DNA of 64,000 nucleotides from Herminiimonas contaminans (GTDB lineage Bacteria > Pseudomonadota > Gammaproteobacteria > Burkholderiales > Burkholderiaceae_D): positions 186,001 to 250,000 of the forward strand of contig NZ_JADOEL010000001.1 of the NCBI RefSeq assembly GCF_015645465.1. The letters run 5' to 3'. Below the pieces are notes generated by a model. The model was not told the DNA's origin. It did no database searches and saw only the letters and a list, made by a program, of their open reading frames with translations. This document shows, one piece after another, positions 18,335-38,951 of this stretch; position 1 is the first letter of the stretch; every line of letters starts with the position of its first letter. Position numbers and translations under genes: made by a program.

Positions 18335-18695
18335 GGGGGCGACCTGGTTTCGACAGGGGTTGCAAAGCAGCGCAGGGCATACCGAGGACTGGTCACCTCG
18401 TAAATACAACCAGAAAAGTAATAACTGCAAACGATAACTCGTACGCACTAGCCGCTTAATACCGGTTAGCTTCACACCGTTTCTTCCTTGGGGCGGGCTG
18501 GCAACAGCAGTGAAGTCATATACAAGGAATCGCGTCGTGCCGGGTCACTTGGCAAGACGTTAAACAATAGGTGACTCGCCTGTCCGCAGCGTGTGCGTCC
18601 GCGTCGTACGGGTTAAATCAAATGGCAGCACTAAGTATGTAGAACTGTCTGTAGAGTGCTTCTGGACGCGGGTTCGATTCCCGCCGCCTCCACCA
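18335..18695 (+). ncRNA. ssrA: Transfer-messenger RNA (tmRNA)
   Basis: The ends form the tRNA-Ala-like acceptor: GGGGGCG at the start pairs with CGCCTCC before the encoded ACCA. The 5' part reads GGGGGCGACCTGGTTTCGAC and the T-arm GGGTTCGATTCCCGC lies near the 3' end. The resume codon GCA at 18427 opens the tag reading frame ANDNSYALAA, stop TAA at 18457-18459. The tag ends in ALAA, the usual degradation signal for ClpXP. Total 361 nt, normal for a one-piece tmRNA. It rescues stalled ribosomes with SmpB (not in this window). Confidence 0.97.
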
Positions 18696-18702
18696 CCAAT
18701 AC

Positions 18703-18733
18703 AAAAGGTCATCCATCAGGATGGCCTTTTTTA
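18703..18733 (+). terminator. Rho-independent terminator of ssrA
   Basis: AAAAGGTCATCC, loop ATCA, GGATGGCCTTTT followed by further T. The 12-bp stem has one G-T pair and starts eight bases after the tmRNA CCA end. Confidence 0.93.
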
Positions 18734-18878
18734 TTTGTATTGACGTTGAGGGGATCGAACTCGCGGGACGCGGGGCGTAGCCAGGGTTGCGCAACGCATG
18801 CGTTGTGCTGGCTGAGCGGTGTGCGCTTGCAAGCACACAGTCGGGAGCCCACTATCGTAATCCACTGGCAGGTCCTTA

Positions 18879-19067
18879 TTGACACTCCTCCCCTTACGGC
18901 AACAGAATCGAGCCAGACAGCTATTGGATTTCATCATCACACCAAGCTGCGACGAAGAATTGGCTGAACGCCTAAAGATATTGCAAGTTTCCCGCATCCT
19001 TCTGAAGCCATTCAAGGTCAGGGATGTTATTTCAACTATCGAAATGGTGAGTCGTCCGGCTTCGTAA
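18879..19067 (+). pseudogene. Remnant of a response-regulator receiver domain
   Basis: The open frame gives about 62 codons whose second half, with ERLKILQVSRILLKPF, then VRDVISTIEMV, looks like the last third of a CheY-type receiver domain, including the conserved Lys-Pro-Phe. No phospho-acceptor half is found in any frame upstream; bases 18734-18880 are unrecognisable. The TTG start has no ribosome site. I read it as a decayed 3' fragment left behind the tmRNA gene, a site where integrating elements often insert. Confidence 0.5.
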
Positions 19068-19914: not shown

Positions 19915-20490
19915 CTATTTGAAACGATATTTGAGACCGACCGTAACAAGGTTGGTGCCTGCATAGCGCGCATACATGATGCGTCCGTCCACGTTGCCGA
20001 ACAGCCGGGCTTCATAACCGCCACCCCAGGTAAAGTCTGTATCCGTTTTCCGGACCGAGTTAGTTCTGCGTAATGCAGGAAACTCGGCGGTGGTATTGAT
20101 AGTCGAATACGTCGCGCCGCCCAGTACATACAGGCCAGGCAGAACCTCGGGTAATTTATAAAAGAAAGCCAGGTCATGATTTTTGGTCTCGACCCGCGCA
20201 TTGTAAGAAAAAACGCCGTTAGTCGCGCTTTGCTTATAGTCGCTGGGACGTACTGCTCCCAGCTCTACGCTCAGCTTGGGCGTGATCTGGTAACCGACGT
20301 AAAGTCGGCCGCCATCCACCCTGTCAGTTTCGGAGGTAACCCGAAAACTCGGATTTAGCGGGTCTTTTTTCTTGACCTTGCCACTACCGGCATCCAGGCC
20401 TAAATAGAATTTCCCGACATCATTTTCATCTGCAAACGAAACGGCGGAAACGACGGATAGCACTGCAAAAACGAGCGGTTTAATGGACAT
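19915..20490 (-). CDS. Small outer membrane beta-barrel protein
   Basis: About 191 aa. I start at the ATG at 20490 because a clean signal peptide follows (MSIKPLVFAVLSVVSAVSFA). The mature chain alternates polar and hydrophobic residues in short strands (GKFYLGLDAGSGKVKKK, RLYVGYQITPKLSVELGAV, GLYVLGGATYSTINT, RIMYARYAGTNLVTVGLKYR) and ends Tyr-Arg-Phe-Lys, close to the aromatic end used for barrel insertion. This fits an eight-stranded OmpA/OmpW-like barrel. It lies 149 bases downstream of the large barrel gene on the same strand. Function unknown. Confidence 0.78.
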   Translation of the reverse strand: MSIKPLVFAVLSVVSAVSFADENDVGKFYLGLDAGSGKVKKKDPLNPSFRVTSETDRVDGGRLYVGYQITPKLSVELGAVRPSDYKQSATNGVFSYNARVETKNHDLAFFYKLPEVLPGLYVLGGATYSTINTTAEFPALRRTNSVRKTDTDFTWGGGYEARLFGNVDGRIMYARYAGTNLVTVGLKYRFK

Positions 20491-20603
20491 TACACTTCTG
20501 ACGAAAACGGAATGCGTGACCCTGAACAATGGGAAACGGCAAATTGCTGCCATGCCGACCTTATAGGCCGCGCATTATACAGAAACAGCCGTCAACACAT
20601 TCC

Positions 20604-20639: not shown

Positions 20640-23600
20640 TCAGTAAGTCGCCAACACGTTCACAAAGAAGCCACGAGCGCGATACGACAGGTCCGTCAAA
20701 TCATCCGAGTAGTTGGTGAAGTTATAGCCGACACCCGCTTTGATGCCTTTGTCGAAGTGACGATACAGACCAACTAATGCACCTGCCTTCGCATCTTTCG
20801 CTTCCGTCGCACGCAGATTGCGGAATTCAACCAGTGCATCCCACTCTTTGACGAAATGTATGTCAGCGCGCAGCACCCACAGATCCGCGCGGCTGGAGAA
20901 CCATTCGCCACCGGCCACCGGGGTCTTCAGTTCACCGATACGGAAAGCATACTTACCACCTACCGACAACCACGGCAGCAAGTCGTAAATCGTATCAACT
21001 GCAAACACCTGGCTACGTTGTGCGTAATCCGCATTCAGGCCGGACGGCGTCAATTGACCATTGGTAGGTACATTGTTCAGGTTGGTGTACTTGAACAAGG
21101 TATTCCAGCGATCGTTATCGACCGGACGGTAAGCACTGGCCAACACGAATTCACGATAGTTACCATCGATGAATGCCCCCTGGTTATTGCGCGAGCGTGA
21201 CACATTGAATTTGCTCAGGATGCGCCAGGCTGGATCAACCTGATAACCCAGGGTATTACGCATCAGCCAGGTTGTGCGCTCACCGGACACATTGCCGCTG
21301 TCCTTGCGCCATTCCAGGCTACCGCCGTATTTAAGGCCATCCTTTTTATAGCCGACCGAACCGCCCAGCGCGCGACGTTCAAGATCGCCCGCCAACGGAT
21401 CGGAGACCGTACCGTATTCAGCTTTGGCGCCCCAGTTCCAGCGATCATTCGGCGCCCAGTCTATACCGAAGGCTTGGGTCAGGCTTTGCGGACCTGCACC
21501 GTTGGAAGCACGTCCTTCACCGAAGACACGCAACTGATCCGATACACGGGTGCTGGCACCGGAAACCAAAGTTCCTTGACGACCGCGCCACGCGATATCC
21601 GGACTTTCTGTTTCCATCGCATAGGTCAGGTAGGCATTGCTACGATCCGATACACGGTAATCAGCACCCACCTTGCCGCCTATACCCATGCTGCCATCCG
21701 ATACTTCGGCCAGCAGCTTGACGCGTTCGCTGACTTGCAGCGAGCCACCTACACCAACGCGATTATTTGCATCGCGTGTGGCATCGTGATCCAGTGTCGC
21801 CTGCACGAAACCGTATGCTTCCCAGTCATCTTTCTCACCCGGCTTGCCATCCTTGCGCTCCGGTTTGTAGCCGACACGTACTTGTGCATCGGTACGTGAC
21901 CCGACTTGTGACAGCAATGGGCTAGCATTGGCAACCACCTTGCTGCGGTCATCCATACGCGTACCGACTGCCACATCCCATTCAGGATTGATGGTTTGGC
22001 GCACTGCGACTTCGAGGTTCTGGCTATCCTGCAGATCACCGTTACGTTGATCAGCTTTGACCAGCAAGCGTGTACCCTGCACGATTTCGACGTCAGCATT
22101 CACACCTGTTTGCCGGATCGCTTCACCACTGACACCGATCTGGCCTGGTGCGGAGTAACCACGTTCACGGTTCTGCGCATAGGCGGAGAACTTGCCTTTC
22201 ATATCGTCCGTGACTTCTGCCAGGTCGACCGCTGCTTCCACACGCTGCGCACCAGCCGTCTGGTTGGTACCGGGATTCAGGCTGTTGAAACCGAAACCAC
22301 CATCCAGCGAAGTTTGCGAACCACTGCCCGGCCCCTTCGATTGTGCTACTTCGAATTTGACCCAGGTACCCGGTTTGTAACGGAAGGTACCATCTACTCC
22401 TTTCAGAGTCTGGCTGGTGCCGTCTTCGCCTTGATGGTAGCTGCTGATACCCAGTTGTACGTGATCGTTCAGCCATTGGCTGCCACGGAAACCGGTCGAC
22501 AGATTGTTAATGGCTGTCACACCTGGTGCGTATTCATAAGTCGTCACCAGGTAAACCGGATTGCCGCTCACCGCCGACGTCATGATCAGGCTGGCGCTGC
22601 CGCCGGTCGATGACAATGGCGATTGCAGCAAGATGCGACCTTGCAGGTAGTTGATCTCGTAGTCCTGTGCTGGTGCCAGCTCACGACGTTCGATCACCAT
22701 GCCGGAATCCTTGTCGCGTACCTCTACCCATACCCGCTCCGAACCCTGCGTGATATCCAGGTGGCGCAGGTAGTACAGCGAACCGCCGGTACCACGGAAT
22801 TCTTCACGCGACGACAAGGTACCCGGATCTGCCAGGAAGGCATCGATCTGCGTTTGCTTCTCGCCGTAGGTGGTTGCATCTTCCGAACGATGACGCAGTT
22901 GCGCACCGTACAAGCCACGCGAGTATTGCATCAACTCGGTACCTGTCCAGCTGGTTTTGAAGTTACCCCACAGCGCATGCGAGTCGCCTTTTTGCAATTT
23001 CACATAGAACTTACCTTGTGTCGGCGCATCGTCAACCGTGGTGCTGTCATCGCCATAGACCGGGTAATACAGGTTCGGATCTATGCTGCGCAACAGGTAT
23101 TTAGGATCCTTGCTGGAGAAGTTCGAGAACAAATCCTTGAACGGACCTTCGCGCGTATCCGCCGAAGCAGTCAGCAAGTACTCGCCCTTGATCTTGCCTT
23201 TCAGGTAGAACGCGGCACGACCGTCGACGTAGACTTTATTGTCGTAATGATCTCCGTTGTCACCCGTCACCAGTTTGATCGGGCCCGATGTCTTGTTCTG
23301 CCCTACCGTCAAATCACCAAGTGCCAGATAGAACCAGTCATTGGCTGCAATGTTCAGATTACGACGGAAGCTGTTCGCACGACCATCTGCTTCAGTCACG
23401 GTGACTTCGACTGACTGCGGACCGGCTGGCATGATTTGCTTCATCGCAAACTTGCCATTCGCATCCACCGGCAAATCCAGTCCGAGGGCAGCGACGCGCT
23501 GACCTGGCTGCATATGAGTGCCATTGACGGTAATCGTGCCGCCGGTCACCGGGATATTGCGCAGTGCCAGGCTGTTTTCACCGTAACCAGTCAGGCGTTC

Positions 23601-24770
23601 ACGTTCTATCTTGTCCTGATCTTCATTTGCAGGCATCGCGCGATTCAACAGATTCAGCGACTTCAGACTGGTTTCATCGAAACGACCTTGTTCGTCATAC
23701 ACGCGCAACAGATAAAAGACTTGGTCATCCGCGACCACAGGTGCAGTCCAGTTCGTCACACCGGTCCACGAAACTGGCAACACTTCCAATGGTTGCTCTT
23801 GTGTCTTTTGTCCTGCTTTGAACAAACGCAACTCGGCCTTCTTCAGCCATGGTATGTAGTTGGACCAGGCACGGAATTCGACTTGCTGGCCTTTGACAGC
23901 TGCATTCGGCGTTGCCCAGATATTCATGGTCGGTGCAATTGCCAGACTGTCGTAGCGTACCTGGATATCTGCACGCTCAAGCGCAACGTCGGTACAACGC
24001 TGCCCATCCGCCTCATTCGCGTCATTACCCTGGAACGGTACGCCGTCGATAGTGATACGGAATGGCGCATCTATCATCTGCGACATCGCTTGCGGTGAAC
24101 AAGGTGCAGGCTTAGGCAAGGCAACTACTGGTGCTGCCATATCAAACCAGACTTGCAAGCCCACACGGCGATTCTTGGCCATGCCTTCGGGTGTCGCATT
24201 CGATGCGAGCGGCTGGCTTTCGCCCTTGCCATCTATCGAGTATGTGATCGCAGGATTTTTCAATGCCTGCTTCAGGTAAGCGGCTACCGTCAGCGCACGC
24301 GCTTCAGACAAACCCTGGTTATCGGTAAAGATACGCTTGGCATTCGGTGACAGACGTTGATTGTCGGTATGACCGACGATCGCGATACGCATACCGGCGA
24401 TCACACCTTTACGTGCGTGGATCTCGGCTATCAATGCATCCAGCGATTCCTTGGCGGACGGTGTCAGGTCAGCTTTACCGGATACGAACAGGCTCAAGCC
24501 TTTGGCTTCCTGCAGTGCCTTGCTCAGGTCTGCAGGTGCAGCAGGTACTTGCGCAGCACGATTACGCATCTCGGTCGCTTCAGCGCGTGTCACGCCGGAC
24601 GGCATAGGATAGGCAATCTTCGGTTGCACTTCCGCCGGACGCGGTATCGAATGCAAATCGATGCGTCCGTTATCGATACGTTTGCCATTAATCTCTGTAT
24701 CCGCCCAGGTGGATGGACCGGCAAACAACATGCTGATCGCCAATGCGATGGTGTGTGGTCGGAGCATCAT
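20640..24770 (-). CDS. Giant OmpA-domain outer membrane beta-barrel protein
   Basis: A 1376-aa secreted protein. Signal peptide 1-23 (MMLRPHTIALAISMLFAGPS...). About 90-220 is a complete OmpA-like peptidoglycan-binding domain (IAIVGHTDNQRLSPNAK, QGLSEARALTVAAYL, NRRVGLQVWF). About 280-480 has Ig-like beta modules. About 480-1376 is rich in amphipathic strands and ends GFFVNVLATY, with a terminal aromatic residue as in BAM substrates. It thus looks like a large barrel that also grips peptidoglycan. The ATG overlaps the TGA of the 2198-aa gene (ATGA), so the two are translationally coupled. I do not recognise a characterised family for the whole; a role in displaying or anchoring its partner is inference. 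Confidence 0.8.
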   Translation of the reverse strand: MMLRPHTIALAISMLFAGPSTWADTEINGKRIDNGRIDLHSIPRPAEVQPKIAYPMPSGVTRAEATEMRNRAAQVPAAPADLSKALQEAKGLSLFVSGKADLTPSAKESLDALIAEIHARKGVIAGMRIAIVGHTDNQRLSPNAKRIFTDNQGLSEARALTVAAYLKQALKNPAITYSIDGKGESQPLASNATPEGMAKNRRVGLQVWFDMAAPVVALPKPAPCSPQAMSQMIDAPFRITIDGVPFQGNDANEADGQRCTDVALERADIQVRYDSLAIAPTMNIWATPNAAVKGQQVEFRAWSNYIPWLKKAELRLFKAGQKTQEQPLEVLPVSWTGVTNWTAPVVADDQVFYLLRVYDEQGRFDETSLKSLNLLNRAMPANEDQDKIERERLTGYGENSLALRNIPVTGGTITVNGTHMQPGQRVAALGLDLPVDANGKFAMKQIMPAGPQSVEVTVTEADGRANSFRRNLNIAANDWFYLALGDLTVGQNKTSGPIKLVTGDNGDHYDNKVYVDGRAAFYLKGKIKGEYLLTASADTREGPFKDLFSNFSSKDPKYLLRSIDPNLYYPVYGDDSTTVDDAPTQGKFYVKLQKGDSHALWGNFKTSWTGTELMQYSRGLYGAQLRHRSEDATTYGEKQTQIDAFLADPGTLSSREEFRGTGGSLYYLRHLDITQGSERVWVEVRDKDSGMVIERRELAPAQDYEINYLQGRILLQSPLSSTGGSASLIMTSAVSGNPVYLVTTYEYAPGVTAINNLSTGFRGSQWLNDHVQLGISSYHQGEDGTSQTLKGVDGTFRYKPGTWVKFEVAQSKGPGSGSQTSLDGGFGFNSLNPGTNQTAGAQRVEAAVDLAEVTDDMKGKFSAYAQNRERGYSAPGQIGVSGEAIRQTGVNADVEIVQGTRLLVKADQRNGDLQDSQNLEVAVRQTINPEWDVAVGTRMDDRSKVVANASPLLSQVGSRTDAQVRVGYKPERKDGKPGEKDDWEAYGFVQATLDHDATRDANNRVGVGGSLQVSERVKLLAEVSDGSMGIGGKVGADYRVSDRSNAYLTYAMETESPDIAWRGRQGTLVSGASTRVSDQLRVFGEGRASNGAGPQSLTQAFGIDWAPNDRWNWGAKAEYGTVSDPLAGDLERRALGGSVGYKKDGLKYGGSLEWRKDSGNVSGERTTWLMRNTLGYQVDPAWRILSKFNVSRSRNNQGAFIDGNYREFVLASAYRPVDNDRWNTLFKYTNLNNVPTNGQLTPSGLNADYAQRSQVFAVDTIYDLLPWLSVGGKYAFRIGELKTPVAGGEWFSSRADLWVLRADIHFVKEWDALVEFRNLRATEAKDAKAGALVGLYRHFDKGIKAGVGYNFTNYSDDLTDLSYRARGFFVNVLATY

Positions 24771-27700
24771 TGCGCGCCCTCCAATTCTGTTTCTATCATC
24801 AGCGGAACAAGTGGCTCGCTTTCCTCATGCCCTTTCTTGCGCTTCTCCTTCCACATACGCTGTACACGATCACTGACGGCAGCGATGCGTTTCTTGGCGA
24901 GGTCTTTGGATTCCTTACCCTGACGGTATGCAATACGCAGAACCGTAGGACGTGATTGCAGTTGCTCCGGCAATTTATCCAGCTCCGAGATATAAGGTGC
25001 TTGCAATTCTGTGCCCTCACCTACGAATGCAGCACTGGAGAGTTCCAGTCGCACTACGCGATGTACGCTTGCACCAAAATTAAGTTTGACCATCTTGCCG
25101 CGGGTGACGCGAACGTCGCGCGGGTTCTCTGTAGTCAGGCGATAACCGGACGGCAAAGTGCGTTCATCCACTTTCATGACGAAGTTGGAACCGCGATCCG
25201 CATTCGGAATGGCCGCGCAAGCTACGTGGAAACGCCCTTCCTGATCGCTGGTCACCAGCAAGCCGCGGGCAGTCGCGATACGCACGTTGGCAATACCTGG
25301 CTCACCCTGGTCTTGATAACCATTGGCATTCTTGTCATCGAAGACCTTGCCGATGATGTCGGAACAATCAAAGGTCGGATCTGGCACCACGCGCACGGTA
25401 GCCGAAGCTGTGTTCGAGACTTGCGTTTTAGTGATGTCGTTAATTGAAGAGACGCGATTAACGAATTCACCTTCAGAGACGCCGGTACCGACGACCAGCA
25501 TCATGCGCAGTGTCTTGCGCTCACCCGCTGTGAAAGTCTGGTTAGGCCAGGTCAGGTTGCGACCGCTGACCAAAGGTTCGGTTGGCACACCGTTCAGCGA
25601 AGCGGTACCGGTGCGATAACGGAAACCAGCTGGTATCACGTCGACGACATTGATGCCCGTCAAGGTTGCCGCCAAGGTGTTGGTGGCGGTGATGGTGTAA
25701 GGCACCAGATCTCCACGTACCACGTTGACCAGTGGGGTGCTCTTCGTCATCACGATCGCACCACCCAGGACTGGGTCCAGCGGGATATGGTTATTCCCAA
25801 CGTTGGCCGATCTGGTAGGACCTGGCGTGTTCGACAGATTAAATGTCGTGTAGTACTGCGTCGAGCCGGAACCCAGCGTGCTGGTGGTAGCCGGGCAAGC
25901 ACCAGGATTTTGCTTGGTTATTGCCAGTGCCGGTGCACCCACGTTGCTTTGTACCAGCGCTGGATCTGGGGTCGGTGAGACCAGCAAGGTATTCGAACAT
26001 ACCGGCAACAATGTCGATGGCGACGGTGTGTAACCCGCAGGATAAGTGGTCACAACCAGGGTATACATGCCTGGGGGTGCGTTCGAATTCAACAGGAATT
26101 GATACAAGCCATCAGCACCGGTAGTCGACGCACCAACGCCACCAATCACATGCAACGCCGGATCAAAGCCCGCAGGTCCCTGAATGGTAACCACTGCGCC
26201 GGAAACCGGTTGACGTGTGATCGCGTCATAGACAACACCAGTCGCACCACCGTGCCCTTCTTCTGCGAAGTTATTGTTCAGCGTCGATGTATTCGGCGGC
26301 AGAACGATATTGCTGATGCGGCTAGGCGTGACCGCCTGCGACGTAGCTGTACCTGGCGTACCACCGTTAGGCACAGGGCCTGCTGTCGTAATACCGTTGC
26401 TGGTACCAGATGGCTGGGTAGGCTGCAGCACAGAATAAGTGCCTGGCAACAATCCGCTGAAGCTGTAGTTACCGTCAGCGTCGGTTACTGTCGTTGCGAC
26501 CACAACATTCGCTGCATTCAGCAACTGGATGGTGACGCCTGGCAGCGGTGTATCTACACCACTTTCAAACGTGCCATTCGGTACCGGATTGTTGTCCTTG
26601 AATACCTTACCGGAAATCGTGGATGCAGCGATCTCTGCAAAGTTGTTATTAATCGAACCCGAAATTTCACCCGCGCCGTTATCACCCAGTACGACATTCG
26701 CGATCTGGCTGCTGGTCGTGCTTGGGTTAGAGGCTGTGCCTGGTGTACCTGTGCTGCCAGCTACGTTCACTATCGTGCCCGCAGTGGTCGTGCCATTCAG
26801 TGTTCCTGGTGGTTGTGTAGGTTGGCACACCGAATAGGTGGCCGCACCCAGGTCGGCAAATATATAGTTACCTAGTGAATCGGTCGTCGCGGTTGCAAGC
26901 AATGGGCCGCTACAAGTCGGGCCGCTGCGCAATTCAATTGGCGAGTTGGCAATCGGGGTGTCGGTACCACTGGTAAATACACCGTTAGGAACCAGCTTGT
27001 TGTCCTTGAATACCTTGCCCGAAATATAGCCACGTGTGCTGATAGTCAGCGGTGCATTCGCAGGTTGTTGGTTATTACCCAGATTGGTTTGCAAGGCACC
27101 GGCCGGGATATTGTTGGTATGTACACCAGCAGCAAATCCGGTCACATTGACATCGATGGTACAGCCGCCTGGCGGGATGGTACCGCCGCTACGCAAACGT
27201 ACACTGACTGCATTCGGCACTGCATCGACCGTGCCGCCGCAAGTGGTCGTAATGCCAGGCGTCGCCGTCAGGCTGATCTGACCAGGAGCGACCGGCAGTA
27301 CGTCGTCAAAATTGGACGTCAGGGTCATCGTCGTCGCATTGTCATTGGTAATGACGATGCTCAGGCGCGATACGCCGTTCGGTGGAATCACTGCAGGAGA
27401 AAACTGCTTGCTAACGGTCGGTGGTGTCGAGACGATCAGTTCTGCACGTGTCGGCTCTTCATTCACGACACCTTCATTAGTCGTGACTGCACCAGCCGGA
27501 ATCGTATTGGTATAAGTACCTGATACGTTGCTCAAGACGTTGACCGTCGCCGTACAAGAACTGGTCGGAGCAATCGTAGCACCGCTCAGGCGCACGCTGG
27601 TTCCCGATGGATCAGCGGTCACTACACCGCCGACGCAGGTAGTGCTCGCTCCCGGCGTAGGTGCCACAACCAGACCTGTCGGCAGGACATCTGTCACATT

Positions 27701-30700
27701 GACGCCGGTCAATGCGGTGGCATTGGTGTTTTCAAAACGCAGGGTCAGCACTGCAATCGCACCAGGGGCCTTATTATCAATACCGGTAGTGAAGCCAGCA
27801 GGATTACCTGCGTCCAGCGTGAGCAGACTAAACGCCTTGTGCACCGACAAAGGCGATTTTGCGCGCAAAGTATCGCTGGTCGGCGTTGTGTTATTGGTTG
27901 TCGTGCCACCGATAGTGACAGACAAGGCACCAGCCGGAATCGTATTGACGTAGTCGCCTGCCGCTGCAACCAGTACATCGATTTCCGCGTAGCAGCTGGC
28001 AGGTACCAGGCCACTTGCAGCAGGAATCGTGCCGCCGCTGACTTGTACGACGTTGCCGCCGGAAGATGTCACTGTTGCGCCTGTACATGTCGTCGTCGGA
28101 TTGCCACCATCAGCAGGAATTGTCACGCCAGCTGGCAGAGTATCGTTCACCGACAGGTTGGTGCCCACCTGTGCCGTAGGGTTAAAGAAGGAAATGCGCA
28201 AACGCGAACGCTCACCCGGTTTGACCACATTCGGTGTGAACTGCTTGACGATACCTAAGTTGCTGCTGGTCGCCAGACTGGTCGATGCAGGAGCGCTGTT
28301 TGTCAGGCCTTGGTCAGTATGCAAGGCACCTGCCGGGATGATGTTGGTCACACCCGCTGCCACGGTTGAAGTCACATTAACCTTGACCGAGCAAGTCGTG
28401 TTCGCCGCCAATGTTGCAATGCTCAGGCTGACCGAGCGCGAGCCGGGCACGGCAACCACATTCCCCCCCGGGCAAGTCGTGCTCGCCATAGGACTCGCAG
28501 TGATAACCCAGCCATTTTCCGGTGCACCAGCAGTACCGTCAGTCGTGAAGTAATCGGTGACACCCATATTGGTAACGCCTTGGGTACCGCTATTGATATC
28601 AATCGTCAATTGACTGACCTGGCCCGGAAAGGTCAACGAAGATGGATTCGTCGATTTCAAAATGGTCAGGTTGGTTGGCGCATTACGTATCAGGGTCGCA
28701 TCGACCGAACTTACATTGCGTACGCCACCGTCGGCGGTGATGTTGTTGGCTGGAATGCTGTTAAGCCAGTTCGTGCTACCCGTTGCGATGACATCAAACA
28801 GCAGCGAGCAACTTCCGCCGCCGTTGATGCTGGCTCCAGCTAGCGAAATCGAGTTCGCTCCAGCTGCACCGGTAATGACAGGTGTACCTGCACAAGTCGA
28901 ATATGCGTTGGTCGGATTCGCCAAAACCATCCCGGTCGGCAATGGATCAGTCACGGCCACGTTGGTCAGTGGCAGAGTGCTCGAATTCAGCAGCTGCACG
29001 GTAACAGTCGATTTGCCACCAGAAGCTACACTGGCCGGATTAAAGCTTTTATTTGCAGTCAGCGCCGAGGTATAGGTCACGGTCGCCTGATTCGTTGCCA
29101 GCGGCGTCAGCGAGCGCGTCTGGTTATCTGCCAGGGTTTCATTGCCGCCTACCGTTGCAATATTGTTGTACACACCAGCAGGCCCCACTACGTCCACTTG
29201 CAATACGCAAGTACCATCCGCGCCTGTCCCGTTGCCTGCACGAGCCGGAACGGTTGCGCCATTCATGCTGACCGAAGTTGAATTTGGTGTTGCAGTGATG
29301 GTCGGCGCACCGCAGGTGCTGGCGGCATTCGATGGCGTTGCGACACGCAGTAGACCACCACCCGCAGTTGCCGCTGGCAAAGTATCGGAGATGGTTACGC
29401 TGGTCAGCGGATTTACCGATTTATTGTTCAGCCTGATCGTCATGCGGACGATGGTGCCTTCGGCAAAAGTGCTGACGCCAGGCGCTGATTCTGCAAATGC
29501 CTTGCTTACAGAAAGTACCGGAGCAGTTGGATTAGGCGGTGTCGTATTCGAACCACCGCCGTTACAAACCTGACCTGCACCATTGTTGTAACAGACGCCA
29601 CCTGAATTAATAACGTTAGCAGTCGAGGTATTGGTAGTCAGCGAAGTCATCGCCCAGAAACTGACCTTACAAGAACCAGGTGCGTTAATGGTGCTGCGAC
29701 CAGGAACCGTCGTCAGGTTAACCACTGGTGATGTTGCGCCGACTGGCGACGACGTGCTCACCGCGCCGCAACCTGCGCCAGTCACTGTCGGCGAGTAATT
29801 TACTCCGTTGATGGTGCCGGTCAGAAATGTCTGGCCATTGGTGAAGGTGTCAGTAATGCTGACGTTGTTGATCGCACCTGCACCGTAGTTTTGTACTTCA
29901 ACCTCATAGCGGATCGGGTTACCCGGTGCCACCGAGGTAGGTGTAGAGGTTTTCAAAACACGCAAATCATCCGCCACCAGGATGGAGGAGGATGCCGGTT
30001 GACTACGTATCGCCGGGTTACCGACATTGACCGCGCCTTCCGACAATGCATTGGTATAAGTAACCGGAACACCAGTAGTTTGCACACGACCGGTAAAGTT
30101 CACGGTGACGGTACAAGTTCCAGCTGTATTACCGACTTTCGCAGGTATGGTGCCACCTGCCAAAGAAAATCCTACCGCAGTAGTGGTCGGTACAGCACCA
30201 CATGTGCTGGTGGCGCCAGTTACCAACAGACCTTTGGTTCCGTCTGCGCCACCCACTCCATCAATAGGACTATCTACAAAATTGCTGATGTTAAGCGGTG
30301 TGTCGCCTTCATTCGTCAGCGTGATCGTGAAGCTACCGTTTTCTCCACTGGATAACGATGCCGCAGAAAATGCCTTTGACACCTTGAGCGGCGAAAGGAC
30401 AGTGACATTTGCAGTTGCATCGGCAGATGCGGGTATACCCACGCTGTTGGTGAAGCCCGTGGACCGATTGATACGGTTGGTTTGCGCTCCGGTCGAATAT
30501 GCACCATTGGTCTGGTTCGCTTCGACGTTGACTGTGAAGGTACAACTTCCGCTCGCGGGCAAAGTACCACTACCACTTACGGTCGTGGCACCTGCAACTG
30601 CAGTGATAGTCGGAGCGGGACCGCCACCGGTACAGGTAGCATTTGCAACCAGAGGAGTAGCGATCTTGATGATGCTGCTACCACCCAATTGAGGGAATGC

Positions 30701-31363
30701 ATCAGCAATGTTAAAACTGTCGATAGCAACCGGATTCGTATTGCTGACGGTAACAGTCAACGCGGTCGGCGCACCACCAAGTACCAGGTTCGAATTTGCA
30801 AATGACTTGTTAATTTCCGGCTGTGCAAGCGCGCGTACACCAAAGGTCTGGGTTACCTGACCGCTATTCGCCACATTAACGCCGTTCTCTGTACCGGTTA
30901 CCGCACCACTACCCAATTGATAATCGTAGCTAGCAGCGGCACCGTTCGAAGTTCCCGCAGTAACAGGAATATCGATAGTACAAGAGCCGTCTACCGCAGG
31001 GCTTGTCGTTGCAGCTGGAACTACGCCACCATCCAGCTTGATCTGCTGCGTACCAACCGAGGTAGTCATGGTTCCGCCGCAGGTAGAAACCGGAGTACCG
31101 GCTATTTTCAAACCGTTCGGCAAAGTACCGGGCAACAGATTGTCAAACGCGGTGTTATTGACAGGCACCGTCGCATTGTTCGACAAAGTAATGCGCAGGG
31201 TACGCACCTCGCCCGGATAAAAAGAAGACGGGTCCGGCGTCGTCACCGATGCAGTCAATGCAGCAAATGCAGACATAGGCAACAAGCCCATCGCCAGAGC
31301 CAGAGGCACTGACCGGAGCATGGATGCGAAAGACGATTTGGCAAAAATTGTGGGACGCGACAT
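24767..31363 (-). CDS. Giant DUF11-repeat surface protein with SdrD/Cna-B-like modules
   Basis: A 2198-aa Thr/Asn/Gly-rich exported protein. Signal peptide 1-34. Ten DUF11-like repeats of about 130-160 residues begin near 35, 184, 328, 469, 629, 780, 911, 1048, 1184 and 1327; most open with a V-x-K-x-F type motif (VSKAF, ANKSF, IVKQF) and carry a conserved Cys pair. SdrD/Cna-B-like modules follow at about 1455, 1593 (ISGKVFKDNNPVPNG) and 1718, another DUF11 at about 1870, a further B-like module with DDKNANGYQDQGEPG at about 1993, and a final OmpA-like region with a Lys/Arg-rich tail. It has no LPXTG or type I secretion repeat. It is likely a stalk-like surface protein that works with the coupled barrel gene. 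Confidence 0.8.
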   Translation of the reverse strand: MSRPTIFAKSSFASMLRSVPLALAMGLLPMSAFAALTASVTTPDPSSFYPGEVRTLRITLSNNATVPVNNTAFDNLLPGTLPNGLKIAGTPVSTCGGTMTTSVGTQQIKLDGGVVPAATTSPAVDGSCTIDIPVTAGTSNGAAASYDYQLGSGAVTGTENGVNVANSGQVTQTFGVRALAQPEINKSFANSNLVLGGAPTALTVTVSNTNPVAIDSFNIADAFPQLGGSSIIKIATPLVANATCTGGGPAPTITAVAGATTVSGSGTLPASGSCTFTVNVEANQTNGAYSTGAQTNRINRSTGFTNSVGIPASADATANVTVLSPLKVSKAFSAASLSSGENGSFTITLTNEGDTPLNISNFVDSPIDGVGGADGTKGLLVTGATSTCGAVPTTTAVGFSLAGGTIPAKVGNTAGTCTVTVNFTGRVQTTGVPVTYTNALSEGAVNVGNPAIRSQPASSSILVADDLRVLKTSTPTSVAPGNPIRYEVEVQNYGAGAINNVSITDTFTNGQTFLTGTINGVNYSPTVTGAGCGAVSTSSPVGATSPVVNLTTVPGRSTINAPGSCKVSFWAMTSLTTNTSTANVINSGGVCYNNGAGQVCNGGGSNTTPPNPTAPVLSVSKAFAESAPGVSTFAEGTIVRMTIRLNNKSVNPLTSVTISDTLPAATAGGGLLRVATPSNAASTCGAPTITATPNSTSVSMNGATVPARAGNGTGADGTCVLQVDVVGPAGVYNNIATVGGNETLADNQTRSLTPLATNQATVTYTSALTANKSFNPASVASGGKSTVTVQLLNSSTLPLTNVAVTDPLPTGMVLANPTNAYSTCAGTPVITGAAGANSISLAGASINGGGSCSLLFDVIATGSTNWLNSIPANNITADGGVRNVSSVDATLIRNAPTNLTILKSTNPSSLTFPGQVSQLTIDINSGTQGVTNMGVTDYFTTDGTAGAPENGWVITASPMASTTCPGGNVVAVPGSRSVSLSIATLAANTTCSVKVNVTSTVAAGVTNIIPAGALHTDQGLTNSAPASTSLATSSNLGIVKQFTPNVVKPGERSRLRISFFNPTAQVGTNLSVNDTLPAGVTIPADGGNPTTTCTGATVTSSGGNVVQVSGGTIPAASGLVPASCYAEIDVLVAAAGDYVNTIPAGALSVTIGGTTTNNTTPTSDTLRAKSPLSVHKAFSLLTLDAGNPAGFTTGIDNKAPGAIAVLTLRFENTNATALTGVNVTDVLPTGLVVAPTPGASTTCVGGVVTADPSGTSVRLSGATIAPTSSCTATVNVLSNVSGTYTNTIPAGAVTTNEGVVNEEPTRAELIVSTPPTVSKQFSPAVIPPNGVSRLSIVITNDNATTMTLTSNFDDVLPVAPGQISLTATPGITTTCGGTVDAVPNAVSVRLRSGGTIPPGGCTIDVNVTGFAAGVHTNNIPAGALQTNLGNNQQPANAPLTISTRGYISGKVFKDNKLVPNGVFTSGTDTPIANSPIELRSGPTCSGPLLATATTDSLGNYIFADLGAATYSVCQPTQPPGTLNGTTTAGTIVNVAGSTGTPGTASNPSTTSSQIANVVLGDNGAGEISGSINNNFAEIAASTISGKVFKDNNPVPNGTFESGVDTPLPGVTIQLLNAANVVVATTVTDADGNYSFSGLLPGTYSVLQPTQPSGTSNGITTAGPVPNGGTPGTATSQAVTPSRISNIVLPPNTSTLNNNFAEEGHGGATGVVYDAITRQPVSGAVVTIQGPAGFDPALHVIGGVGASTTGADGLYQFLLNSNAPPGMYTLVVTTYPAGYTPSPSTLLPVCSNTLLVSPTPDPALVQSNVGAPALAITKQNPGACPATTSTLGSGSTQYYTTFNLSNTPGPTRSANVGNNHIPLDPVLGGAIVMTKSTPLVNVVRGDLVPYTITATNTLAATLTGINVVDVIPAGFRYRTGTASLNGVPTEPLVSGRNLTWPNQTFTAGERKTLRMMLVVGTGVSEGEFVNRVSSINDITKTQVSNTASATVRVVPDPTFDCSDIIGKVFDDKNANGYQDQGEPGIANVRIATARGLLVTSDQEGRFHVACAAIPNADRGSNFVMKVDERTLPSGYRLTTENPRDVRVTRGKMVKLNFGASVHRVVRLELSSAAFVGEGTELQAPYISELDKLPEQLQSRPTVLRIAYRQGKESKDLAKKRIAAVSDRVQRMWKEKRKKGHEESEPLVPLMIETELEGAQ

Positions 31364-31961: not shown

Positions 31962-33665
31962 TCAGAACTCTTCCCAATCGTCGGCACCGCTGCTAGCACC
32001 GTTCGCAATCTTCTTCGGCGCTGGAGCCGAGATCGCACGATTGGCAGCATCACCATGCGAAGGAACGACCTGTACTTTCGCTGTTTTTCTCACTGGTGCT
32101 ACCGTCACAGCCGAGCTGTCCAACTTAAATACACTGACTGCTTCAGCCAGTTTCGCCGCTTGCTCATTGAGCGATTCCGCAGCAGCCGCAGCTTCTTCTA
32201 CCAATGCTGCATTTTGTTGGGTGACCTGATCCATCTGACCGATCGCCTGATTGACCTGTTCAATACCCGCGCTTTGTTCCTGACTCGCTGCCATGATCTC
32301 GGACATGATGTCAGTGACATGACGCACACTTTGCACCACTTCATCCATAGTCACGCCAGCTTCTTCAACCAGCTTGCTGCCGAGCTCCACTTTATCGACC
32401 GAATCACCGATGAGTGTTTTGATTTCCTTGGCTGCTGCCGCAGAACGTTGTGCCAGGTTGCGCACTTCACTCGCCACCACGGCAAAGCCGCGACCTTGTT
32501 CACCAGCACGTGCTGCTTCGACGGCTGCGTTCAGTGCCAGAATATTGGTCTGGAATGCAATGCCATCGATGACGCCAATGATGTCGACGATTTTCTTCGC
32601 CGAGGCATTGATGTCTTCCATCGTATCGACCACGCGTGATACAACCGCACCGCCTTTTTCTGCGACTCCCGACGCAGATACGGCGAGTTGATTTGCCTGA
32701 CGTGCGTTGTCAGCATTCTGTTTGACGGTAGAAGTCAGTTCTTCCATCGAAGATGCTGTTTCTTCCAATGAGCTGGCCTGTTCTTCGGTGCGGCTGGACA
32801 GATCCAGATTACCGGCAGCGATCTGACTGGAAGCGGTCGCTATCGTATCGATACCTGTGCGCACCTGACTCACGCTTTTCACCAGCCCATCATTCATGTC
32901 GCGCAAGGCATACAAGAGTTGGCCGGTTTCATCGTTGGAGTTGGACTGGATTTTGTTACGCAGATCACCGGAGGCCACGGTACGCGCAACCGACACCGCG
33001 TAATCGAGCGGGCGTGTAATGCTGCGTGACAACAGCCACGCCAGTATCGCGCTCAATATTAAAGCCATGGTGCCCAAAGCAATCAGGACCGTGCGGCCGG
33101 ATGCATACAGCTCATCGACCTCGGCTTTGGCTTTCAGGAAAATCGTTTGCTGAAACTCCACGACAGCCTGTACCGACTGATTGTAGGAAAGCAGCGCCGG
33201 GTCCATTTTTGTTTCTATCAGTTTTTTTGCTGCGGCTTCAGCTGCAGGATTGCCTTCCGCCTTGAGTTTGAACACATCCTTGCGGACATCCATGTAAGCA
33301 GTACGCTTCTCACCGACGACGCTCATCAGCTTCTTGCCTTCGTCGCTATGAATCAACTCAACGATCTGGTTTTGCAGCTTGGTGATTTCCAGGCTTTGCG
33401 CTTCCATTTCAGTCTGGAATTGCTTCTGCACTTCCGCATCATTACTACGTACACGTGCTGCGGTACGCACTGCATTCGCGATATTGCCCAGATACCATTG
33501 ATGTGTCAGCCGCTCCTTGGTAGCGGCCTCCTCCATATGCACAGTAGCCTGTGCTACCTCCTGCAAACGCCAGACACCGATCACGATCATGGATGCCATC
33601 AGTGCCAGTATCACAGCGAACGCCAGTCCCAGACGTACGCCAATTTTCAGATTAGTTATTTTCAT
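31962..33665 (-). CDS. Methyl-accepting chemotaxis protein 1
   Basis: About 567 aa. The ATG at 33665 ([20 protein letters not shown]) is preferred to a TTG 12 bases upstream, giving a normal receptor start. TM1 about 11-30, a periplasmic four-helix sensor about 31-190, TM2 about 190-210 ([18 protein letters not shown]), HAMP about 210-265, then the signalling coiled coil with the hairpin tip [20 protein letters not shown]. It ends DDWEEF, a C-terminal pentapeptide of the kind that tethers CheR/CheB. Ligand unknown. Its signalling half is nearly the same as the next receptor's. Confidence 0.92.
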
Positions 33666-33711
33666 TTTTATACTCAAAGTGAAGAAAGGATATTTGCAAA
33701 AGGATGTTCAC

Positions 33712-33753
33712 GAAAAAACATCAAGTTGCCAGGCCTGCTGGCGAACTTGATGT
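33712..33753 (-). terminator. Rho-independent terminator of the second chemotaxis receptor gene
   Basis: Minus-strand ACATCAAGTT pairs with AACTTGATGT around an inner GCCAG/CTGGC stem with one bulged base, then six T. It lies about 70 bases after the stop of the receptor gene at 33826 and before the start of receptor 1. Confidence 0.88.
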
Positions 33754-33825
33754 CATCGCATAGTCGGGATAAAGCAGGGATAAAGCTGCCCCTGCCTCAA
33801 TCACACACTTCAGATGGGCGTGGAT

Positions 33826-35529
33826 TTAAAACTCTTCCCAATCGTCGCCACCGGTCGGCGCGCCATTCGCTACTTTCTGACGCGCCGGAGCGGGTGCCGA
33901 GATTGCGCGCTTGACTGGTGCTGGTGTGCTGGGAACTGCGGTGATTTTGCTCGCAGCTTTTTTAAGCGGCGTAGCGGCAGCCACACCATCCAGTTTAAAG
34001 ACGCTGACTGCTTCGGCCAGTTTGCCGGCTTGTTCATTCAGCGATTCAGCGGCAGCGGCAGCCTCTTCAACCAGCGCAGCATTCTGTTGCGTGACTTGAT
34101 CCATCTGGCTAATCGCCTGATTGACTTGCTCGATACCTGCGCTTTGTTCCTGGCTGGCTGCAGTGATTTCCGACATGATGTCGGTCACTTGCTGTACGCC
34201 ATGAACAACTTCTTTCATGGTCACACCGGCTTCGGCGACCAGCTTGCTACCGATTTCGACTTTATCTACCGAATCACCGATCAATGTTTTGATTTCCTTG
34301 GCAGCAGCGGCGGAACGTTGCGCCAGGTTGCGCACTTCGCTGGCGACCACGGCAAAGCCGCGACCTTGCTCACCTGCACGCGCTGCTTCCACTGCGGCAT
34401 TCAAGGCAAGGATGTTGGTCTGGAAAGCGATGCCATCAATCACACCAATGATGTCGACAATTTTCTTCGCCGATGTATTGATGTCTTCCATCGTATCGAC
34501 CACTTGCGAAACCACCACACCACCTTTTTCTGCCACGGTGGAAGCCGAAGCTGCCAGTTGATTGGCCTGACGTGCGTTATCAGCATTTTGCTTGACGGTC
34601 GAGGTTAGTTCTTCCATCGACGACGCAGTTTCTTCCAGCGAACTGGCTTGTTGTTCGGTACGGCTGGACAGGTCCAGGTTACCGGCAGCGATTTGCTGGG
34701 TGGCGACACCGATGGCGGTACTGCCCTGGCGTACATTGAAGACGGTTTCTATCAGGCTTTTTTGCATGACTTGCAGACCACTCATCAAGACACCCATTTC
34801 ATTACGGGATTTGACTTCGATGCGGCTGGTCAGATCACCGGAAGAAATCGCGCTGAAATGACCCAGCATTTCAGTCAGCGGTTGCATGATGGCGCGGATC
34901 AGGAAGAAAGCAGCGATCGCAACCACGATCAGGCCAAACAATACGCCACCAATCGCAGCGATACGGAACATCCCGTACATGGATTGACTCGCTTCATAGC
35001 TGGCAGCGGCGACCTTCATCTGGAAGTCCGACAGCTTTTCCGCGCTGTTATTCAGTTCTATGAAGAGCGGCGTGGTTTTTTCAAACATCAGGCGCTCTGC
35101 TTCTTCAAAACGTCCAGCCTGGATCGCAGTGACCAAAGGCAGTGCGCCGTCGCGTATATAGGCATCACGTTTGGCATTCACGTCTTCCGCCAGCTTCTTC
35201 TCTTCTGCATCCGCTGGTAATTCGGTGTAACGCTTCCATGCCTCGTCAGACTGCGCGCGCAAACTCGCGGCGCGGGCGATCAGATCGCCTGCATTCGCTG
35301 CATGCGGCTTGACCAGTACGCGGTCGATATTCGAGCGCGCCTGGAACAAGCGCGTCATTGCAGTATCAATCGCCTGCGATGACGCAAGCTGGTTACCGTA
35401 TACATTTTTCAGTGAGTCATTGGTGCTTTGCAAGCCAAATACACCCATGGCGCCACCAACGATCAGCATGATGCCCATAAAGGCCATCGTGCCTATCAAG
35501 CGCATCTTGATTGACAAGTTATTAAACAT
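33826..35529 (-). CDS. Methyl-accepting chemotaxis protein 2
   Basis: 567 aa, starting ATG at 35529 ([20 protein letters not shown]). TM1 about 10-30, a helical periplasmic sensor about 31-190, TM2 about 190-212, HAMP, and a signalling domain with [20 protein letters not shown]. It also ends DDWEEF. The sensor half differs from receptor 1 while the cytoplasmic half matches closely, a pattern of duplication followed by sensor divergence. It is 45 bases downstream of cheW on the same strand, so it probably shares its transcript. Ligand unknown. Confidence 0.93.
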
Positions 35530-36488: not shown

Positions 36489-38951
36489 TTAAATCGCTTC
36501 GTCCGGATGGCCCAGTATGCATTTCTTGATGATGGCGTGTACCCCCCAATTGCCATTGACAACCTGGGTGATACCGAAATCGACCGCCACCGATATCAGG
36601 GATATCGCCTCATCCTCGTTTAAGGCGTGCGCAGTCATCAGGTAGCGCCGGGTCTTGCGGAAGGCATCGCGCATCGCCATGTCGAGCGAAGCCTTTTTGT
36701 AAATATCAGCCTGCGCGTTGGCACCCAGCTCGACCAGGTGATTGGCATAGCTCAGGCCCTGGATTACCCATTCAGTCTCGCTCTCGAGGAAGGGATGATC
36801 CAGATCGTCGAGGAAAGTCCCGGCTATGTCTTTCTTCTTATGCAGAACCAGCTGGAACTCGCCGGTCAGCGAGCACTCAATCGCCGTGCCGCACAGTTCG
36901 GAATCGCCCTGTGACGCATGCGGATCACCAACCGAGAACAAGGCCCCTGGCACCGCGACCGGCAGGAACAGGGTAGAACCCTTGGCCGCACGCCAGTTAT
37001 CCAGATTTCCACCAAACGAACCTGGCGGCACTGAATCCACTTCATCGTCCAGCAAAGGCGCAACTGCCATCACACCAAAGTGGGGCCGGATAGGAATGCG
37101 CGCATTTTTCAGTACGCCATAGTTCTTCACGATGCTGCTGTGATCAACCGGGATGCCGGGATAATCTATAGTGGTATGGCGCACGCCAAACGGATCGGTC
37201 TGCGGCGTCCAGCGGAAGTTGTAGACCGCCTTCGCGCAGCAATGCTCATGCGTCGGATGCTCGATTTCGTAGATGGTCACGACTTCACGCGGCTTGGGTT
37301 CGGTCAGCAAGTCGTGATAATGGAAGCCCCACCATGACGCGGCGTTACTGCCAAATGATTTGCCGGCGTATTCTTCCGCCGCTGCGGGACGGGTCTGTAT
37401 ATCAAGGATGCGTATTTCCAGCACATCGCCAGGCTCTGCATCCTGCACATAAACCGGGCCGGTACAGATATGTACGCCAAAGCCCTCACCTGCTCCACGT
37501 CCGTAGATGGAACCGTCTATCGGGCCGGAACCGCGCCGGTCTACCGACTTTCCGTTGGCATCCCAATGAAATACGCTCTCTGCGCCCGGATCATTTTTGA
37601 TCATGCGCTCGTAATCATCGTATGCATGCTGGGTCAGCGTTTCTATCGTGACGCAATCGCCTGAATGTACGCTGACGACCGGTTTGATCGTTTTGCTGAA
37701 ATAGCCCCAGTGCACAGTCTTGTCCGAAACCGGAATGTAGTGATGTTTGCTTTGTACGGAGTTGGTCGACACCGCCTCATCGCCGAGCGGAACATGCGCA
37801 TGTTCGGCAATTTCACTCAGTATGCTGGCAAATTGGTCACGCAGGCCATCCGCCACACCATCGACGTGCGCAACACGTGGGGCACCGTGTGTTTTGCGAC
37901 TGTTGCGCCTCTTTTCAGAAGTCGCTGCAGCATTGCTGGCAGGACGTCCCCGCTGCAAATGCAAAGCGACTTGCTTGCCCGCAGAAGAGCGATACGCTTT
38001 CGGACTGATGCCGAACTCCAGGTTGAAAGCGCGACTGAAGTTTGCCGCGTCATTAAAGCCCCAGCGGAAGCAAAGTTCGCAGATGGTCAAATGTTTGAGC
38101 GCGCTATTGGCCAGATCATTGCGACAACGATCCAGTCGGCGCTTCTTCACATATTCACCGAAGGTGGTATCACCACCTGCAAACAATTTTTGTATATAAC
38201 GCGCAGATAGATTTTCGATACGGGCGATTTCGCCTATCGATACATCCGGATCGGTCAGGCGGTTCTCTATGCTGCGACAAACCCGACGCAAATGTCCGAG
38301 CTGAACCGAGGTCGAATGCTCGGCATCACCATCACCAGAGTCTTCGGCATCCGCATGCCGCGCCATGCCCGCGATCAACAGGCTGATCAGGCTAGCCTCC
38401 ATTTGCCCGAGGTCTTCCGGGCCTAGGCCATCGAAGTGTTCGCCTATCGAATATAGGAAGTCAGCACTGATACCACCAGTACCAAAACTCGTCGCCACCT
38501 TGTTCAAATCACTGGAACCGGTGCGCATCAGGCGTGCCAGGAATCCGGCTTCCTTCAGTTCGACCAGAATCGCGGTAAATGCAGTTCGTAAATCAAGACG
38601 CCAGTCTTGCTGCGGATTGAGCAAAAAGATATCACCGGCATCCACAGTCGCAGATTCGGGACCGACACTGACCTGGCCATGACCTTCCAGCAGCGCAAGG
38701 ATCAGGACGACGTCATTGCGCTTGCCCACCGCATCCTGCGGCGAATGCAATATCTGTGGTGAACCATGTAATTTAGCGAATACGGAAGCGTGGGAAGAAA
38801 CACTGACGGAGGCACAACCATGCAAAGGTGTGCGTTCAGCTGCGGGGAAATCACAGGCCAGTCCGATTCGACTCAAGGTTTGCTGCCATGCTGCAGCACG
38901 CAACTCGCCAGGGAAGGCGTCCGTCGAAAAACGATTAAAGTTATCAGCCAT
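36489..38951 (-). CDS. AraC-type regulator fused to acetamidase/formamidase
   Basis: One 820-aa frame with no internal stop. Residues 1-200 resemble the AraC ligand-binding domain of the AraC_binding_2 type. About 217-323 is a double helix-turn-helix (VSIGEIARIENLSARYIQKL; ICELCFRWGFNDAANFSRAF with GISPKAYR). A basic, Ser/Ala-rich linker covers 324-400. About 402-800 is an acetamidase/formamidase domain (HWGYFSKTIKPVVSVHSGD; GVHICTGPVYVQDAEPGDVL; SVGDPHASQGDSELCGTAIE). Such amidases release ammonia from formamide or acetamide. The ATG at 38951 follows GGTGAAGC. The fusion suggests an amidase that senses or reports its substrate to a promoter; this is inference. No nik/urt transport genes are near. 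Confidence 0.85.
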   Translation of the reverse strand: MADNFNRFSTDAFPGELRAAAWQQTLSRIGLACDFPAAERTPLHGCASVSVSSHASVFAKLHGSPQILHSPQDAVGKRNDVVLILALLEGHGQVSVGPESATVDAGDIFLLNPQQDWRLDLRTAFTAILVELKEAGFLARLMRTGSSDLNKVATSFGTGGISADFLYSIGEHFDGLGPEDLGQMEASLISLLIAGMARHADAEDSGDGDAEHSTSVQLGHLRRVCRSIENRLTDPDVSIGEIARIENLSARYIQKLFAGGDTTFGEYVKKRRLDRCRNDLANSALKHLTICELCFRWGFNDAANFSRAFNLEFGISPKAYRSSAGKQVALHLQRGRPASNAAATSEKRRNSRKTHGAPRVAHVDGVADGLRDQFASILSEIAEHAHVPLGDEAVSTNSVQSKHHYIPVSDKTVHWGYFSKTIKPVVSVHSGDCVTIETLTQHAYDDYERMIKNDPGAESVFHWDANGKSVDRRGSGPIDGSIYGRGAGEGFGVHICTGPVYVQDAEPGDVLEIRILDIQTRPAAAEEYAGKSFGSNAASWWGFHYHDLLTEPKPREVVTIYEIEHPTHEHCCAKAVYNFRWTPQTDPFGVRHTTIDYPGIPVDHSSIVKNYGVLKNARIPIRPHFGVMAVAPLLDDEVDSVPPGSFGGNLDNWRAAKGSTLFLPVAVPGALFSVGDPHASQGDSELCGTAIECSLTGEFQLVLHKKKDIAGTFLDDLDHPFLESETEWVIQGLSYANHLVELGANAQADIYKKASLDMAMRDAFRKTRRYLMTAHALNEDEAISLISVAVDFGITQVVNGNWGVHAIIKKCILGHPDEAI

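Follow-up and report, generated by a model that had tools for sequence, protein, structure and literature searches.

A stalk gene and an overlapping gene for a predicted outer-membrane barrel in Herminiimonas contaminans: a putative split, autotransporter-like fibrillar adhesin

The window analysed here is a stretch of 64,000 nucleotides of Herminiimonas contaminans (assembly GCF_015645465.1, contig NZ_JADOEL010000001.1, positions 186,001 to 250,000), and it carries two giant, overlapping genes on its minus strand. Gene 1 (24767..31363, minus strand) is the upstream member and codes for a stalk protein of 2198 residues, P0002. Gene 2 (20640..24770, minus strand) lies downstream and codes for P0001, a protein of 1376 residues with an OmpA domain and a predicted outer-membrane barrel. 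Both open reading frames were found at these positions and, as a first-pass annotation made from the letters alone had said, they share the four bases ATGA (24767..24770, minus strand). The pair is probably a split, autotransporter-like fibrillar adhesin, whose stalk is held in the outer membrane by a barrel of its own and probably also crosses the membrane through it; the probability of this reading is put at roughly 0.6. It builds on the pairing and adjacency of the two genes, a conserved C-terminal module of the stalk, an OmpA domain of movable location, and fused and swapped forms of the pair, all of which were observed.

The barrel and the C-terminal module were searched in the same sample of 398 Pseudomonadota genomes, drawn across the phylum. 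A barrel was taken as full-length when the match covered at least four fifths of the query, a module as strong when its expectation value (E) was below 1e-20, and two features as near when they lay within 15 kb. Barrel matches at 1e-10 were found in 57 of the 398 genomes and were full-length in 22 of these, at 23 places; strong modules lay at 25 places in 23 genomes. All 22 genomes with a full-length barrel also hold a strong module (hypergeometric P about 3e-35, a value which ignores relatedness), and at 23 of 23 places the full-length barrel adjoins or is fused to a module-bearing stalk, with split pairs at 21 of these places and a swapped pair and a fused frame at one each. Seen from the module, 23 of the 25 strong matches have a full-length barrel near them. 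The other two are both in one genome (G348), where each stands only 28 bases short of the end of its contig; a further contig of this genome ends in a barrel fragment, the final 135 residues. The first-pass annotation had named independent occurrence of the two families as the result that would speak against a coupled system; they do not occur independently, as 22 of the 23 module genomes are the whole set of 22 barrel genomes. Most of the barrel was also present in 20 plasmid records, and the pair was found in all 16 of the contexts examined.

Gene order was compared in a set of 65 loci (L numbers), all picked by the barrel alone except L080 and L083; close relatives within it (L006-L008; L034 and L035) are not independent. 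The set consists of 51 split pairs, 11 single chains, one swapped pair (L080), L037, which is the L080 locus in a shortened form, and L083, a contig-end fragment. The start codon overlaps the upstream stop by four bases in 30 of the split pairs and by one base in two, and in the remaining 19 the nearest start codon is -14 to +68 bases from the stop. Conservation of the four-base overlap, proposed earlier as a check, holds for 30 of the 51 split pairs and not for the 21 with other spacings. In genome G326 the order is swapped, with the barrel first and a stalk of 3505 residues beginning 46 bases later. In the fused chains of distant relatives, the stalk domains are N-terminal to the barrel. The stalk genes vary widely in length: the shortest frames, of which some may be truncated, have fewer than 900 codons, and the longest gene is about 19 kb. 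The stalk of Paracoccus alcaliphilus (L076, 7760-14309) is probably truncated: its frame has 231 codons and adjoins two insertion sequences, the module and tail are kept, and a full-length barrel stands beside it. In Devosia, the module and tail are in a separate frame of 152 codons.

Three further loci are recorded here. A plasmid of the cyanobacterium Kovacikia minuta (L079) has a distant barrel adjoining a module-bearing frame with a four-base overlap, and the system may extend beyond Pseudomonadota. IMG/VR contig 2684623061 (L065), catalogued as viral and 65.8 kb long, holds a complete pair with a CshA_NR2 adhesin and was the sole relative in four scans of viral contigs. A plasmid of Acinetobacter haemolyticus (L078, 1-18600) carries a cluster of several short DUF11-type proteins, a stalk-barrel fusion, OmpA in a gene of its own and a further DUF11 gene.

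The stalk protein P0002 begins with a likely Sec signal peptide at residues 1-35 (31259..31363, minus strand), read by eye as ...MSAFA before ALT. Pfam matched DUF7933 in eight stretches of P0002, DUF11 in five and SdrD_B in three, and repeats of these families occupy the stalk region (25379..31258, minus strand). The protein had been called a DUF11 giant; the repeats are there, yet the best-scoring repeat family is DUF7933 and not DUF11. The region is followed by the conserved C-terminal module (25064..25381, minus strand), identified by alignment and genome search. It is SdrD_B-like, with the pattern GKVFDD..NGYQD ... TTENPR..R.T.GK..K.NFGA, and its approximately 106 residues have a mean column identity of 59% across 24 aligned rows of stalk proteins. 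In profile comparison the module resembles SdrD structures.

By profile comparison in hhalign, the stalk protein ends in a decayed OmpA-like domain (24770..25072, minus strand). The last approximately 100 residues of the window's stalk and 22 relatives were aligned to the OmpA domains of the system with a score of 33.7 and a probability of 78.6. The best of 100 column shuffles reached a score of 16.2 and a probability of 1.6, and the probability was 0.19 with the reversed profile and 0.15 with the profile of the neighbouring module. A full OmpA domain was rejected for the tail of P0002, as none of the 23 single sequences matches Pfam OmpA and the similarity is one of profiles only.

The barrel protein P0001 also has a likely Sec signal peptide (24702..24770, minus strand), read by eye as ...STWA before DTE. 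An OmpA peptidoglycan-binding domain follows at residues 94-201 (24168..24491, minus strand), with the motif GHTD...LSEARA, a match to Pfam PF00691 at E 5.6e-14 and matches to OmpA-like domains of PDB chains. Residues 236-482 (23325..24065, minus strand) form a conserved pre-barrel region that is probably immunoglobulin-like (Ig-like), according to the alignment and to weak matches of 12 of the 33 scanned barrel proteins to Glucodextran_B, a family of Ig-like nature. Residues 483-1376 (20640..23324, minus strand) are the predicted beta-barrel with an outer-membrane-type C-terminus, a prediction from alignment, Pfam scan and C-terminal pattern, in which boundary and strand number are rough. Besides the OmpA domain, the other approximately 1170 residues of P0001 gave no Pfam family above the curated cut-off. 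The NCBIfam matches are to OmpA-domain models (best 25 of 31 matches), all 43 PDB matches are within the OmpA-domain region, and the profile of the barrel family had no match among solved structures (best E 0.89).

The barrel prediction draws on a Pfam scan in which the members of a 33-row alignment were scanned singly at E up to 1, with 22 families matched overall. DUF2490 was matched by 15 members and OMP_b-brl by ten (best 2.5e-9), followed by BBP2 in four, DUF481 and YadA_anchor in three each, and KdgM, IAT_beta and Toluene_X in one each. All of these are outer-membrane barrel families, and the matches to them are mostly weak and vary from member to member. The C-terminal residue is F, Y or W in 28 of the 33 members, G and N stand at ten and six residues from the end in all 33, and hydrophobic residues alternate; such a pattern is expected for outer-membrane assembly signals. 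From the Pfam matches and this pattern, the C-terminal region of gene 2 is predicted to be an outer-membrane beta-barrel. The amphipathicity profile of residues 483-1376 has 40 and 34 peaks at the two stricter thresholds, a rough hint of size only, and it is without weight as evidence for a barrel, since its mean was 1.53 in this region and 1.52 in the preceding one. As regards the OmpA domain and large barrel that the first-pass annotation had assigned to the second gene, the OmpA domain is confirmed, and the barrel is backed at the level of sequence. A non-membrane fold, which had been named as a contrary outcome, is less favoured by the sequence than an outer-membrane barrel, and the test is a partial one.

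Public records name some relatives of P0001 TonB-dependent receptor, outer membrane protein transport protein or hypothetical. The first label was rejected, since neither a plug domain nor TonB_dep_Rec is among the 22 families matched by the 33 members at E up to 1. The second has no support in the domain scan beyond the single weak Toluene_X match.

The OmpA domain does not keep one place in the system. In the window and in most of the nearer relatives it is at the N-terminus of the barrel protein, L048 being without OmpA there, and in L026 and L029 it is present in three copies. It is at the end of the stalk protein in L014, L038, L039, L041-L043 and L065. Eight loci have it in a frame of its own, namely those of the Vibrio type (L013, L044-L046), L053, L055, L063 and, from Acinetobacter, L078. 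The separate frames open -73 to +36 bases from the end of the barrel frame, and Pfam confirmed all four that were scanned of the eight. Among the fused chains, L058, L059 and L061 have OmpA between the stalk and the barrel, and L057 has it behind the barrel. When these places were mapped on a quickly built tree of 60 barrel regions, at least nine changes were needed for the location of OmpA and at least three for the fused or split state. Judged from domain matches and profiles, an OmpA-type domain, intact or decayed, stands at the junction of stalk and barrel in many forms, on either side of the gene boundary; in the third-gene forms and in L057 it is placed after the barrel and not at the junction. 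A varying location is expected if barrel, stalk and third gene are parts of one complex.

A surface role is suggested by the repeats and by the heads of some relatives. In fibrillar adhesins, DUF11 serves as a stalk domain, which an isopeptide bond can lock (PMC12617251), and in a survey of CshA_NR2-type adhesins those of Proteobacteria most often had DUF11 repeats and OmpA-like anchors (PMC10952558). The stalk of L065 has a CshA_NR2 head and then GEVED at its start, and the module and OmpA at its end. CshA_NR2 was found in three of the 398 genomes, and two of these cases are stalk genes of such pairs (L038, L043). Around the third, no module, OmpA or barrel was found within the 19 kb examined. 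A class-wide search of 239 genomes gave no further case of CshA_NR2, and no match was found when plasmids were searched by tblastn with the CshA_NR2/GEVED head of L065. With the head outside and the OmpA anchor inside, the outer membrane has to be crossed, and the barrel is the obvious candidate. This crossing is left open for DUF11/OmpA adhesins in PMC12617251 and PMC10952558, as far as the main text of the former and the text of the latter go, because neither mentions the outer membrane; the word "barrel" is also absent from the main text of PMC12617251.

In the proposed mechanism, gene 1 would supply a long stalk of Ig-like repeats, exported to the periplasm by Sec as its signal peptide suggests. 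The conserved C-terminal module and the decayed OmpA-like tail would remain on the periplasmic side of the outer membrane, and gene 2 would be the outer-membrane barrel that ties the stalk. The stalk would probably thread through this barrel with the N-terminus leading outwards, and the OmpA domain of gene 2 would grip peptidoglycan, so that a pull on the stalk would be carried to the cell wall. The membrane barrel and the Sec export are predictions from sequence; from the topology we infer that the stalk would have its N-terminus outside and its C-terminus in the periplasm, held by a barrel that would display the repeat protein on the surface and whose OmpA domain would grip the wall. The anchor or exporter which the first-pass annotation had suggested gains support from the pairing and the barrel-like sequence; display would follow from the topology, and the barrel may export, anchor or do both.

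Several results weigh against the split-adhesin reading. In 29 of the 60 rows, among them the plasmid pairs of Rhizobiales and Rhodobacterales, no canonical OmpA was detected in the stalk protein, the barrel protein or the genes nearby, so that not every pair has a peptidoglycan tether of this kind. No adhesive-domain family is among the Pfam matches of the window's own stalk P0002, and the window's own barrel region, scanned on its own at E up to 1, matched none of the outer-membrane families. DUF7933 alone is not specific, as it was found in ten of the 398 genomes and eight of these lack a full-length barrel. For weak modules, a barrel match is nearby in 26 of 40 cases and absent in 14, and partial barrels have a module match nearby in 26 of 41 cases and none in 15. 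Because weak modules and partial barrels are often unpaired, the tight pairing rule is limited to the full-length family.

The passage of the stalk through the barrel is itself an inferred step, and it is possible, if unlikely, that the barrel only anchors, the stalk crossing the outer membrane otherwise and then docking on the barrel by its C-terminal module. The most conserved part of the stalk is indeed this docking-like module and not an export signal, the swapped gene order shows that the usual coupling is not essential, and type II secretion genes adjoin one pair and an autotransporter gene is near another. However, no outer-membrane exporter recurs across 14 annotated plasmid contexts of pairs, and the fused chains have the stalk N-terminal to the barrel, like classical autotransporters. 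Much less probable is a periplasmic scaffold in which the pair ties the outer membrane to peptidoglycan and the repeats stay within the periplasm. In favour of it, OmpA domains lie in the periplasm, as the C-terminus of the stalk protein probably does, but stalk genes of under 900 codons to about 19 kb are too long and variable for a fixed gap, relatives bear the adhesive CshA_NR2 head, and the role described for DUF11 in PMC12617251 is in surface stalks.

The database names of some relatives would fit a gene 2 product that is a common nutrient receptor or porin, linked to an adhesin by co-regulation only, as would the Phyllobacterium sp. 628 locus (L068, 14726-18303), where exbB, exbD, a TonB-family gene and a gene for a siderophore-interacting protein are directly downstream of the pair. 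This explanation of gene 2 is also very improbable, as the 33 members matched no TonB plug or receptor family at E up to 1, the barrel adjoins or is fused to a stalk at every full-length place, and it is fused with the stalk in distant relatives.

Among known systems, the closest are the OmpA-anchored CLIPPER (DUF11) fibrillar adhesins, such as Acinetobacter silvestris B9T28_05395 (PMC12617251), which also have a stalk of DUF11-type repeats and an OmpA-like anchor. The stalk genes of L038, L043 and L065 resemble them further, as they open with or close to CshA_NR2 and finish with OmpA. Of the features of these adhesins, the tandem Ig-like stalk domains (DUF11/DUF7933) are present in P0002. Where these adhesins have a C-terminal OmpA in the same chain, P0002 has a tail that is OmpA-like by profile but has no Pfam match, with the canonical OmpA on gene 2, and a recognised N-terminal adhesive domain is not among the Pfam matches of P0002. 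Unlike the adhesins as described in the main text of PMC12617251, the system here has a dedicated barrel gene, and OmpA can sit on the barrel or on a third gene. The published OmpA-anchored DUF11 adhesins may have their missing partner in this barrel, and because of this the pair is ranked as a variant of known adhesins and not as categorically new.

TraA-TraB of Myxococcus xanthus (PMC3325183) is likewise a surface repeat protein with an OmpA-domain partner, in genes overlapping by four bases. However, the TraB model covers only the OmpA domain of P0001, with 24.3 bits against a cut-off of 700, and no PA14, Cys-rich-repeat or MYXO-CTERM family is among the Pfam and NCBIfam matches of P0002. 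Type V secretion systems (autotransporters, two-partner and inverse) share the use of one dedicated barrel per large surface passenger, and the fused forms have passenger and then barrel. Differences are found for each type. No POTRA, ShlB or haemagglutination-activity domain of two-partner secretion (type Vb) is among the matches of the window pair and the 33 barrel members. No PF03797-type barrel of classical autotransporters (type Va) is among the matches of the 33 members, and the genes are split here and fused in other relatives. IAT_beta of inverse autotransporters (type Ve) was matched by one of the 33 members at E 0.081, and the order of barrel and passenger is opposite. Solitary DUF3233 autotransporter barrels are also stand-alone outer-membrane barrels with a putative passenger gene upstream, in one case for an OmpA-domain protein, but they have 12 strands (PMC3206015), against a region of about 890 residues here, and DUF3233 is not among the matches. 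By the sequence features tested, the pair is not a member of the type V or TraA/TraB families.

A wider proposal, which we hold as tentative and rather doubtful, is that the pair belongs to a new class of outer-membrane secretion and anchoring machines. An unusually large single-chain barrel (34-40 amphipathic peaks, a rough figure) would thread and grip giant Ig-like stalks, and the peptidoglycan clamp would be interchangeable among stalk, barrel and third subunit. Such a class would correspond to autotransporters in split form, with no relation to known type V barrels. The DUF11/CshA-type adhesins that it may serve would be spread over Pseudomonadota and, as one weak match suggests, Cyanobacteria.

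In the window, a small OMP_b-brl protein (19915-20553, minus strand) is encoded directly downstream of the pair, and two genes for methyl-accepting chemotaxis receptors (31962-35529, minus strand) are upstream. Farther on, a protein of 820 residues (36489-38951, minus strand) is an unusual fusion of an AraC-type regulator (HTH_18, AraC_binding_2) with an acetamidase/formamidase domain. A transfer-messenger RNA (tmRNA) gene with the tag ANDNSYALAA was predicted at 18335-18695 (plus strand); a second tmRNA prediction at 18600-19066 overlaps it and is probably spurious.

The pair was not found described in the literature searched; most subscription papers were outside its coverage, so absence in print is not established. 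The C-terminal module gives a simple rule for finding further pairs. A likely role can also be named for a barrel family that is widespread and that public records list as TonB-dependent receptor or as hypothetical. With the barrel gene next door at every full-length place and fused in relatives, it is a testable candidate for the outer-membrane crossing of the adhesin, and the pairing offers a possible explanation of the route by which adhesins of a known kind get across this membrane.

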